Source: an uncultured Serinicoccus sp.
Lineage (GTDB): Bacteria; Actinomycetota; Actinomycetes; Actinomycetales; Dermatophilaceae
DNA length: 64,000 nt
Direction of reading: 5' to 3'
Assembly (NCBI RefSeq): GCF_947500995.1
Contig: NZ_CANMUA010000009.1
Span: forward strand, 124,001 to 188,000
Shown here: positions 38,549-47,887 of the stretch, in pieces
Layout of the letters: each line of letters starts with the position of its first letter
How positions within the stretch are numbered: position 1 is the first letter of the stretch
Translations under genes and position numbers: made by a program
The notes under the pieces: model-generated
The model's database searches: none
Told to the model about the DNA's origin: nothing
What the model saw: only the letters and a program-made list of their open reading frames with translations

Positions 38549-38554
38549 CCGTGG

Positions 38555-38570
38555 TGTGACCTAGATCACA
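38555..38570. promoter_or_regulatory. CRP/GlxR-type operator
   Basis: TGTGA-CCTAGA-TCACA matches the published actinobacterial GlxR consensus TGTGANNTANNTCACA at every fixed position, and the outer GG/CC extends the palindrome to 38553-38572. It lies 35 bases before the molybdopterin enzyme start. A second inverted repeat, CCAGGGT-N9-ACCCTGG (38581-38603), separates it from the ATG. Confidence 0.7.
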
Positions 38571-38605
38571 CCATCCGGAACCAGGGTCCGAGCCGAACCC
38601 TGGGC

Positions 38606-40129
38606 ATGACGACGACATCCCCTTCGCGAGGCCAGCGTGTGGCCGGAGCCGGCTCCGGACTGCTCGCCGGCGGCGCCGGGGTGCTCGCCGGGGAGGGGCT
38701 GGCTCAGCTCCTGGACGTGACCGGACCGGTCGTGGCGGTGGGCAACCGCGCGGTCGACCTCACCCCCCGCCCGCTCAAGGAGTGGGCCATCAGCACCTTC
38801 GGCCAGGCCGACAAGGCCGTCCTGCTGGGCGGGGTGCTGGTGACGCTGGTCGGGCTGCTCCTCGCCCTCGGGTGGGTCGGCGTGCGGCGCCGTGCGACCG
38901 CCCTCGTCGGCACTGCTCTCCTGGTCTTCCTGGCCGGGGTGGCGATGGTGCTCGACCCCGCGCAGGGCGGTGGTGCTCCGGCCGTCGCGGCCTCCGTTGC
39001 GGGGATGCTGCTGGTCGGGGTCGGTGGCCTCGCGTGGCTGCTCTCGGCGCTGCCGGCGCGGTCCGGGCAGGGGTCGGGGCTGGACCGGCGCCGTTTCCTC
39101 GTCGCCACGTCCAGCGTCGCCGCCCTGGGGGCGGCGGGCGGCGCCACCCGCAGCTTCGGAGGCGCGACCGGCAGTGGCGAGGTCGACCTCCCGGCGCCCG
39201 CCATGGCTGCCGAGCCGGTGCCGGACGGGGTCAGCTTCGACGTCGACGGACTCACGCCCCACGTCACGCCTACCCCTGACTTCTACCGGGTGGACACCGC
39301 CCTGCAGGTGCCGGCGGTGGACGCCGGGTCCCACGTGCTGCGGATCACCGGCATGGTGGACCGTCCGCTGGAGCTGACCCTCGAGGACCTGCTCGCCAGG
39401 GACCTCGTGGAACGTCGGATCACCCTCACCTGCGTGAGCAACGAGGTGGGCGGCGACCTGCTCGGGACCGCCACCTGGCTCGGTGTCCCGGTGCGCGAGC
39501 TGCTCGCCGAGGCAGGGGTGCAGGACGGTGCGGACGCCGTGCGCTCCGTCAGCGTCGACGGCTACACGGCCGGGACACCGCTCGGGGTGCTCACCGACGA
39601 GCGCGAGGCGCTGCTCGCCGTCGGGATGAACGGCGGCCCGCTGCCGGCCGAGCACGGCCACCCCCTGCGCATGGTCACCCCCGGGCTGTACGGCTACGTG
39701 TCGGCCACCAAGTGGCTGACCGAGCTCGAGGTCACGCGGTTCGCGGACTTCACCGCCTACTGGACCGACCGCGGGTATGCCGCGAAGGCCCCCATCAAGC
39801 TCTCCTCCCGCATCGACGTGCCGGGCTCGTTCGCCCAGCTCGAGGCCGGTGACGTGACCGTGGCCGGTGTCGCCTGGGCGCAGACCGTCGGCATCGAGCG
39901 CGTGCAGGTGCGCGCCGACGAGGGGGAGTGGCAGGACGCCGAGCTCGGCGTCGAGGACTCCGACCAGACCTGGCGCGCCTGGCGCTGGACCTGGTCGGCG
40001 GAGCCGGGCTCGCACCGGCTCGAGGTCCGCGCGACCGACCGCGCGGGCCAGACCCAGACCTCCCGGCGGGAGCCCATCGCTCCTGACGGGTCCACCGGGT
40101 GGCACAACGTGACGGTCTCCGTCTCCTGA
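38606..40129 (+). CDS. Membrane-anchored sulfite-oxidase-family molybdopterin enzyme
   Basis: The 507-residue protein has about four N-terminal membrane helices (to about residue 150), then a Tat-like [11 protein letters not shown] leading a fifth helix. An extracytoplasmic sulfite-oxidase-type Moco domain follows, with LITC-like [12 protein letters not shown] holding the probable Mo-ligand Cys near 276, [13 protein letters not shown] near 352 and [13 protein letters not shown]-terminal Mo-co dimerisation (Ig-like) domain ends with WHNVTVSVS. The substrate is unknown: sulfite, methionine sulfoxide or other S/N-oxides are all possible in this family. A GlxR-like site lies upstream and a Met-rich fasciclin lipoprotein gene follows after 28 bases. 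Confidence 0.87.
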
Positions 40130-40157
40130 GCCGCCCGACCCGATCAGAAAGGAATGC

Positions 40158-40901
40158 ATGATGCGTATCTCCAAGGGAATCCTGGCCGTCTCGATGGCCT
40201 CCGCGCTCGCCCTGTCCGCCTGTGGCGGCGAGGGTGACGACATGGCCGCCGAGGGCGGCAGCTCGGCCGAGCAGTCGACCGAGGACACGGCCTCCGAGGA
40301 CATGGAGTCCGAGGACATGGCCTCTGAGGACATGGAGTCCGAGGACGACATGGCCGACGACGAGATGGAGACCGAGGAGGACATGGCCGGCGGCGAGATG
40401 GACCCCGCGGCCAACCTCGTGGGCCCGGGCTGCGCCGACTACGCGGAGCAGGTGCCGGACGGCGACGGCTCGGTCGAGGGCATGGCCCAGGACCCGGTCG
40501 CCGTCGCCGCGGGCAACAACCCGCTGCTCACCCAGCTGACCGCCGCCGTCTCCGGCGGGGTCAACCCGGACGTCGACCTCGTCGACACCCTCAACGGCGA
40601 CGAGTTCACCGTCTTCGCCCCGGTCGACGAGGCCTTCGAGGCCATCGACCAGGAGACCATGTCCACGCTGCAGGAGGACGCCGACCTGCTCAGCTCGATC
40701 CTCACCTACCACGTCGTGCCGGGTCAGCTGACGCCGGACGAGGTCGTGAGCGAGCAGACCACGGTCCAGGGCGAGACCCTCGAGGTCACCGGCTCCGGTG
40801 ACGAGCTCATGGTCAACGACGCCTCGGTGATCTGCGGCGGCGTCCAGACCGCCAACGCCACCGTCTACCTCATCGACGGCGTGCTGATGCCGCAGGGCTG
40901 A
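40158..40901 (+). CDS. Fasciclin-domain lipoprotein with a Met/Asp/Glu-rich stalk
   Basis: The 247-residue product has a signal peptide ending in the lipobox LSAC (Cys22), so it is probably a surface lipoprotein. Residues 25-82 are strongly acidic, with Met at 49, 54, 59, 65, 70, 76 and 81, mostly as (E/D)DM units. The C-terminal part is a fasciclin (FAS1) domain: [42 protein letters not shown] and [16 protein letters not shown]. This is similar in layout to mycobacterial MPT70/MPT83. Two adjacent ATGs (40158, 40161) follow AAAGGA. It probably shares a transcript with the Moco enzyme upstream. Confidence 0.9.
40293..40355 (+). repeat. 15-base tandem repeat encoding the acidic Met stalk
   Basis: Four units start TCC/TCT-GAG-GAC-ATG at 40293, 40308, 40323 and 40338; the last has one extra GAC codon. 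They encode SEDM(E/A) repeats in the fasciclin lipoprotein. Copy-number change here would lengthen or shorten the stalk in frame. Confidence 0.7.
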
Positions 40902-40912
40902 CCTGCGGACCG

Positions 40913-40937
40913 CCCCCCGGCCCGAGACACCGGGGGG
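40913..40937 (+). terminator. Hairpin after the fasciclin gene
   Basis: CCCCCCGG (40913-40920) pairs with CCGGGGGG (40930-40937) around a nine-base loop, 12 bases after the stop. The following 140 bases to lepA hold no visible gene. Confidence 0.6.
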
Positions 40938-47747: not shown

Positions 47748-47781
47748 GAGGCGCGCGAGGCGCGCGAGGCGCGCGAGGCGC
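47748..47781 (+). repeat. 9-base tandem repeat GAGGCGCGC
   Basis: Nearly four head-to-tail copies of GAGGCGCGC lie in the gap between the DUF3097 promoter and the fumC terminator. Confidence 0.8.
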
Positions 47782-47790
47782 ACCACTCAT

Positions 47791-47887
47791 CCGACCGAGC
47801 GTCGCGAATGGTTGCTCTCGCATCCCACCGAGCGTCGCGAATGGTTGCTCTCGCCGGAGCAGCCAACCATTCGCGGCGCTCGGTCGG
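47791..47887. repeat. 28-base direct repeats plus inverted copy (REP-like), also fumC terminator
   Basis: Two identical 28-base units start ACCGAGCGTCGCGAATGG at 47794-47821 and 47827-47854, 33 bases apart. A third near-copy in inverted orientation lies at 47857-47884. The outer ends CCGACCGAGCG (47791-47801) and CGCTCGGTCGG (47877-47887) are perfect complements, as are CGCGAATGGTT and AACCATTCGCG inside. The structure starts five bases after the fumC stop on the reverse strand and could end its transcript. It looks like a dispersed palindromic element, but one window cannot show dispersal. Confidence 0.7.

Follow-up and report, generated by a model that had tools for sequence, protein, structure and literature searches.

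A Moco oxidoreductase and an MPT83-type fasciclin lipoprotein with a methionine-patterned tether: a candidate SigK-regulon envelope redox pair

We describe a two-gene locus of an uncultured Serinicoccus sp., located in the window (i.e., the whole 64,000-nt stretch of DNA that was analysed), which couples a molybdenum-cofactor (Moco) oxidoreductase to a fasciclin (FAS1) lipoprotein borne on a long acidic stalk with regularly spaced methionines. Its gene order, upstream motif, enzyme fold and stalk statistics are read from sequence; SigK control, Tat export and a role in envelope redox stress are what we infer. We favor, with a probability of about 0.6, the reading that the two genes specify an envelope redox pair of the SigK regulon, in which the lipoprotein carries a Met-patterned tether that is under selection of its own and perhaps acts as an oxidant sink.

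The gene pair and its sigma/anti-sigma linkage in relatives

As the earlier note had stated, the Moco oxidoreductase gene is followed after an intergenic gap of 28 nt by the fasciclin gene (Table 1), with the assignments supported by matches to PF00174 and PF02469 and by a lipobox, LSAC, at residues 19–22 of the latter protein. The FAS1 part (residues 86–246) aligns with MPT70 (1nyo_A; phmmer E = 8.8e-56), by which the lipoprotein is assigned to the MPT70/MPT83 type; it differs from MPT70 (1nyo) in its long acidic Met stalk, the 1nyo chain having no stalk in the aligned record. It is the product of the only FAS1 gene recovered in the window's genome by a PF02469 search. The enzyme shows 95% identity (best segment) to its counterparts in S. 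chungangensis and an uncultured Serinicoccus (L002 and L006). In Ornithinimicrobium sp. INDO-MA30-4 (L007/L052) the fasciclin frame is broken into two frames. The inverted repeat beyond the fasciclin gene may mark the end of the operon. Elsewhere in the window, positions 47748–47854 hold 3.8 copies of a 9-nt repeat (100% matches) and, after them, two copies of a 33-nt repeat at 97%.

Table 1. Coordinates of the operon and its sequence elements in the window
Feature	Position	Strand	Description or basis
TGTGACCTAGATCACA, perfect CRP/GlxR-type palindrome TGTGA-N6-TCACA	38555..38570		exact match
CCATCC-N16-CCGAAC, ECF (SigK-type) promoter-like motif	38571..38598	+	7 nt 5' of ATG
Moco oxidoreductase gene	38606..40129	+	507 aa; PF00174, E 1.4e-41
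FAS1 lipoprotein gene, MPT70/MPT83-type	40158..40901	+	247 aa; PF02469, E 1.1e-27; lipobox LSAC
Acidic stalk with eight Met, residues 23–83	40224..40406	+	translation
15-nt tandem repeat inside stalk, 4.5 copies	40279..40346	+	Tandem Repeats Finder
GC-rich inverted repeat 3' of fasciclin gene	40911..40937		by eye, unscored

The pairing seen in the window proved to be an old, conserved unit. We retrieved 160 FAS1 loci, namely 80 from the same family, where 114 of 186 genomes have a FAS1 relative (E≤1e-10), and 80 picked among the matches listed for the class set (E≤1e-15; 133 of 296 genomes). In 125 of these loci (family 78/80, class set 47/80), a Moco gene of this kind is found no more than 3 kb upstream of the FAS1 gene and in the same orientation; the distance is at most 450 nt in 122 of the 125. 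Downstream of the FAS1 gene, again within 3 kb, 83 of the 160 loci (59/80 family, 24/80 class) encode an ECF sigma factor and an RskA-type anti-sigma factor, whose Pfam identity comes from one example each (Sigma70_r2/r4_2 and RskA_C); 79 of these 83 are also Moco-paired. Across the 296 class genomes, FAS1 and Moco genes co-occur in 119, with FAS1 only in 14, Moco only in 49 and neither in 114 (odds ratio 19.8, p=1.6e-26, this and our other p-values being too small because the loci share ancestry). One genome (G267) is scored here as Moco-free at E≤1e-40 despite a weaker relative within its own FAS1 locus (L177).

Given the frequency of the Moco gene upstream and of the sigma/anti-sigma genes downstream, the Moco gene as head extends the published mpt83-sigK-rskA cassette (PMC7509140, citing Veyrier 2008). 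The likeness to that cassette lies in the succession of an MPT83-type FAS1 lipoprotein and the sigma and RskA-type anti-sigma factors, and the difference in the Moco oxidoreductase heading the operon: a search of the accessible text for the word 'oxidoreductase' gave 0 matches. Among the titles and abstract openings listed by our literature searches, none mentions a SigK cassette with a Moco enzyme or an MPT83 stalk rich in Met, although Veyrier 2008 may already contain some of these findings. A further difference is that the regulators are detached in the window's lineage, with sigma/anti-sigma genes beside FAS1 in none of the 14 loci nearest the window (L039–L052); in the window's genome, a pair of this kind is located at another place (L213). 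On a mobilizable Arthrobacter plasmid (L285) the order is FAS1-sigma-anti-sigma-Moco, the promoter-like motif precedes both the FAS1 and the Moco gene, and the stalk has several spaced Met. A Sphingomonas plasmid (L290) encodes sigma, anti-sigma and fasciclin in a row, with no Moco gene in the stretch shown.

The motif upstream of the window operon, CCATCC-N16-CCGAAC, is what we take to be the SigK consensus. Among the 125 paired Moco genes, 45 have the strict form on their 5' side and 83 a relaxed form, for which the remainder of the loci predicts 0.012 occurrences per 210 bp; within the 210 bp scanned, 42 of the 125 lack even the relaxed form. Unpaired FAS1 genes have it in 21/35 cases (strict, 9/35) over a longer scan of 350 bp. 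Another copy in the window's genome adjoins the sigma/anti-sigma pair (L222 5222–6872), standing before a CHRD-like gene (a marginal match, 24.8 bits vs a cut-off of 24.1) that is followed by a sortase gene; no motif was seen directly before the sigma gene itself. These occurrences suggest that the window operon would be under SigK control. PMC7509140 holds mycobacterial SigK to be modulated by oxidation of its cysteines (a Cys pair). The sigma domain of the factor encoded by the window's genome (L213) is devoid of Cys, and redox sensing through such a pair would accordingly not apply to it.

The palindrome TGTGACCTAGATCACA, presumably a GlxR site, abuts the promoter-like motif on its upstream side and is the sole match in the window when up to one mismatch is allowed, where 0.69 would be expected. 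By eye, all eight nearest loci (L039–L046) retain it with no more than one change, and it was not seen in L047–L049, L051 and L052.

The enzyme as a distinct branch within the sulfite-oxidase fold

The sole Pfam match of the enzyme is Oxidored_molyb (PF00174, 142 bits), and this Moco domain, with a Mo-ligand Cys (Cys276) that is invariant among the aligned enzymes, places it within the sulfite-oxidase fold. The membrane anchor claimed previously is apparent as three clear TM segments by hydropathy (KD 1.6; residues 67–151), to which the predicted model (mean pLDDT 74) adds two helices: it has five long N-terminal helices (8–35, 55–92, 96–116, 124–147 and 161–184), probably all membrane-embedded, followed by the sulfite-oxidase-fold domain. 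A twin-Arg (R161-R162) precedes the last helix, with each Arg present in 99% of the 104 aligned enzymes, and all 104, the window's included, have an RR pair 60–150 residues before the Cys, which suggests export via the Tat pathway. The signature CVSNxVGG is found in 102 of the 104; the Cys pattern used for the alignment left out 22 of 126 enzymes, and the 12 of these that were inspected have Asn or Ala before the Cys and the same CVSNxVGG.

This layout agrees with that of the dual Sec/Tat protein Sco3746, which PMC5449189 describes as having N-terminal membrane helices, a twin-Arg before the last of them and a C-terminal Moco domain. However, the Sco3746 type bears b haems, and the alignment of 104 enzymes has no conserved His column in TM2–TM4 that could supply their ligands; its sole His column, residue 30, is occupied in 53/104 and is a Glu in the window enzyme. 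A haem-bearing enzyme of this type was hence rejected.

The earlier note had likened the enzyme to MsrP (YedY), and the two do have the sulfite-oxidase fold in common. The likeness did not extend to identity: the enzyme scores 42.6 bits with the MsrP model NCBIfam NF003767 against a cut-off of 207, and none of the three NF003767 matches in the window's genome (best 44.1 bits) passes it. Moreover, its active-site signature, TCVSNxVGG, stands where MsrP has RLRCVE[AG]WSM (compared with L218 and L219, both over the MsrP cut-off). CVSNxVGG is also unlike the corresponding stretch of the aligned sulfite-oxidase-like proteins.

An alternative is that the enzyme is a sulfite dehydrogenase with the lipoprotein as its docking partner. 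The predicted model does match the sulfite dehydrogenase 2blf (E = 7.1e-22) better than MsrP 1xdq (E = 1.3e-08), and SorA and SoxC are the best matches. Nevertheless, the scores for SorA (112 bits vs 600), SoxC (107 vs 420) and SorT (71 vs 570) all fall far below the equivalog cut-offs, the enzyme is without the seven residues, an Arg among them, that follow the Mo-ligand Cys in SorA, and we know of no redox cofactor for FAS1 domains; we thus regard this alternative as highly improbable. Since none of the four cut-offs tested (MsrP, SorA, SoxC and SorT) is reached, the signature is distinct and the haem-ligand His are missing, the enzyme is best classed, by sequence and predicted structure, as a branch of its own within the sulfite-oxidase fold rather than as an MsrP.

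The methionine pattern of the stalk

The stalk spans the lipid Cys to the FAS1 part and has Met at residues 29, 49, 54, 59, 65, 70, 76 and 81. The spacing of 5–6 residues claimed by the earlier note holds for the last seven; its count of seven falls short, the total being eight. The 15-base tandem repeat that it saw under the stalk was recovered by Tandem Repeats Finder (period 15, 83% matches, score 94). The composition of the stalk suggests that it is disordered; the AF2 model of the lipoprotein, built from six sequences, was poor (mean pLDDT 45.6) and was not used.

The Met content is a distinguishing trait of these linkers. With one cutting rule for both sets, Met makes up 452 of 6335 residues in 154 FAS1 linkers vs 4 of 1153 in 39 linkers of other lipoproteins, a density about 20-fold higher, and at least two Met occur in 114/154 vs 1/39. 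The controls come from 74 lipobox loci of the window's genome (14/14 matches) and 20 relatives (30/127 and 30/92), of which 52 were accepted, two FAS1 proteins removed, and 39 of the remaining 50 had a linker of at least 15 residues. The single control with two Met (L129) is another lipoprotein of the window's genome, with an acidic linker (MDDM). In 144 non-redundant stalks, 372 Met stand against 15 residues of I, L, V, F, Y and W together, i.e., Met is almost the sole bulky hydrophobic residue. The Met-Met gaps in this set peak at 5–6 (99/233), and gaps below three residues are depleted fourfold relative to shuffled stalks (13 vs 52). With the Serinicoccus group removed, a gap of 6 occurs 42 times vs 12 in shuffles and a gap of 1 three times vs 21.

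These regularities bear on the possibility that the stalk is an inert spacer in which slippage of short repeats has multiplied the Met. Even in the absence of selection, regular spacing and a low content of hydrophobic residues follow when a unit with a single Met is duplicated in tandem, and such duplication accounts for part of the regularity of the spacing. Consistent with this, the stalk is encoded by a tandem repeat, its length varies from 43 to 61 residues among the eight nearest loci (L039–L046), and stalks without Met occur (31/165). These Met-free stalks also count against the favored reading, as do ten stalks with 0–3 Met in a family of the class set taken as mycobacteria-like (f10). 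However, slippage leaves unexplained the enrichment over other lipoprotein linkers, its presence alike in acidic stalks (8.5% Met), Ser-rich ones (6.6%) and the remainder (6.1%), and the near absence of I, L and V, which are one base away from Met. Hence, we consider an inert spacer unlikely, and the Met pattern, which the earlier note had singled out, is real and, by these statistics, probably selected.

The Met crowd toward the FAS1 end (decile counts from 16 to 81; 100/153 stalks with a Met among their final six residues), and the boundary with the domain may be responsible for some of the signal; with the last eight residues dropped, Met still accounts for 262 of 4482 residues. This crowding, together with the lack of redox Cys in the genome's own sigma factor, slightly lowers our confidence in the SigK redox-module reading. 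Five plasmid FAS1 proteins from Alpha- and Betaproteobacteria and Deinococcus have no Met-bearing lipoprotein stalk in their first 130 residues and therefore provide no outgroup.

The spaced Met could instead serve as ligands for copper(I) or a different soft metal, with or without a contribution from the acidic residues. The retention of Met as nearly the only bulky hydrophobic residue would fit such a role, as would the Met-Ser-His units in the stalk of one relative (L113); but the peak spacing of 5–6 is wider than that of the known Mets motifs and His makes up just 0.06% of stalk residues, rendering metal binding improbable.

The earlier note had further tied the stalk Met to the enzyme and suggested asking whether the Met content tracks it. 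Such a tie did not withstand the comparison of neighborhoods: Met makes up 330 of 4759 residues in 125 paired stalks (6.9%) and 89 of 1335 in 40 unpaired ones (6.7%; Mann-Whitney p=0.76), where seven of the 35 unpaired loci gave no stalk of at least 20 residues and were left out and 12 stalks were added from 20 further loci. Smaller unpaired sets gave p=0.31 and 0.26, and removal of the 14 nearest loci left the paired stalks lower (6.0% vs 7.5%, p=0.08). Pairs with a Met-free stalk, which that note itself had named as counting against its proposal, amount to 22/125, and 53/125 paired stalks have at most one Met. Conversely, nine Met in 47 residues are found in a lipoprotein without a Moco neighbor (L138), whose genome (G407) has a Moco gene elsewhere. 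Of the 14 FAS1 genomes that are Moco-free at E≤1e-40, six were fetched and yielded four stalks, with four Met in 28 residues (G423), three (G253), two (G382) and none (G366). In favor of the proposal, stalk Met is highest, at 12.3%, in the lineage of the window itself (14 loci). The spaced Met thus go with the lipoprotein family and not with the adjacent enzyme; in FAS1 genomes other than the Moco-free ones, the enzyme might act on the stalk in trans.

MsrP is associated with MrpX, a Met-rich partner peptide, and has a sigma/anti-sigma link. The system described here is reminiscent of it in combining a Met-rich partner with such a link, but the partner is a FAS1 lipoprotein rather than a free peptide, and its Met are not tied to the enzyme. 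A comparable cycle, in which the stalk Met are oxidized and the adjoining Moco enzyme reduces the methionine sulfoxide, would draw on the fold match to 1xdq, the conserved pairing, the Met-richest stalks of the window's lineage and the genome co-occurrence, which permits action in trans in most genomes without adjacency. Set against this are the failure of the MsrP model here and genome-wide, the replaced active-site signature, sulfite dehydrogenases as the nearest solved structures, the indifference of stalk Met to adjacency (with the paired stalks, if anything, poorer once the 14 nearest loci are removed) and the paired stalks that lack Met. Accordingly, we deem this cycle very unlikely.

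A proposed envelope redox module

Returning to the favored reading, we propose that the two genes constitute an envelope module of the SigK regulon, whose first product would be a membrane-anchored, Tat-exported Moco oxidoreductase facing outward and whose second would be a FAS1 lipoprotein of the MPT83 type on a flexible tether. Many relatives have an operon that runs on into the genes for the ECF sigma and RskA-type anti-sigma factors, whereas the window's lineage has these genes at another place and retains a SigK-type promoter motif before the operon. The spaced Met would be a trait of the tether of this lipoprotein family, selected with or without the enzyme as a neighbor. Our first guess for their role is an oxidant sink, with metal binding and an inert spacer as the main rivals: as exposed, renewable residues the Met might spare the FAS1 domain and nearby proteins from oxidation, with some reductase restoring them. 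A more specific version is that actinobacterial lipoproteins of the MPT83 type have a dedicated redox tether, in which Met set about every 5–6 residues along a disordered stalk scavenge oxidant or, once oxidized, act as a switch of the tether, and are restored by the SigK-regulated, Tat-exported Moco enzyme, be it adjacent or distant. This strikes us as quite unlikely; were it true, it would represent a Gram-positive counterpart of MsrP/MrpX that is built from unrelated components and switched by SigK.

MPT70 and MPT83 are well-known antigens for which, to our knowledge, no function has been established. The Moco enzyme would enter the SigK regulon, and this partner and the class-wide Met pattern offer two direct handles on the function of MPT70/MPT83.
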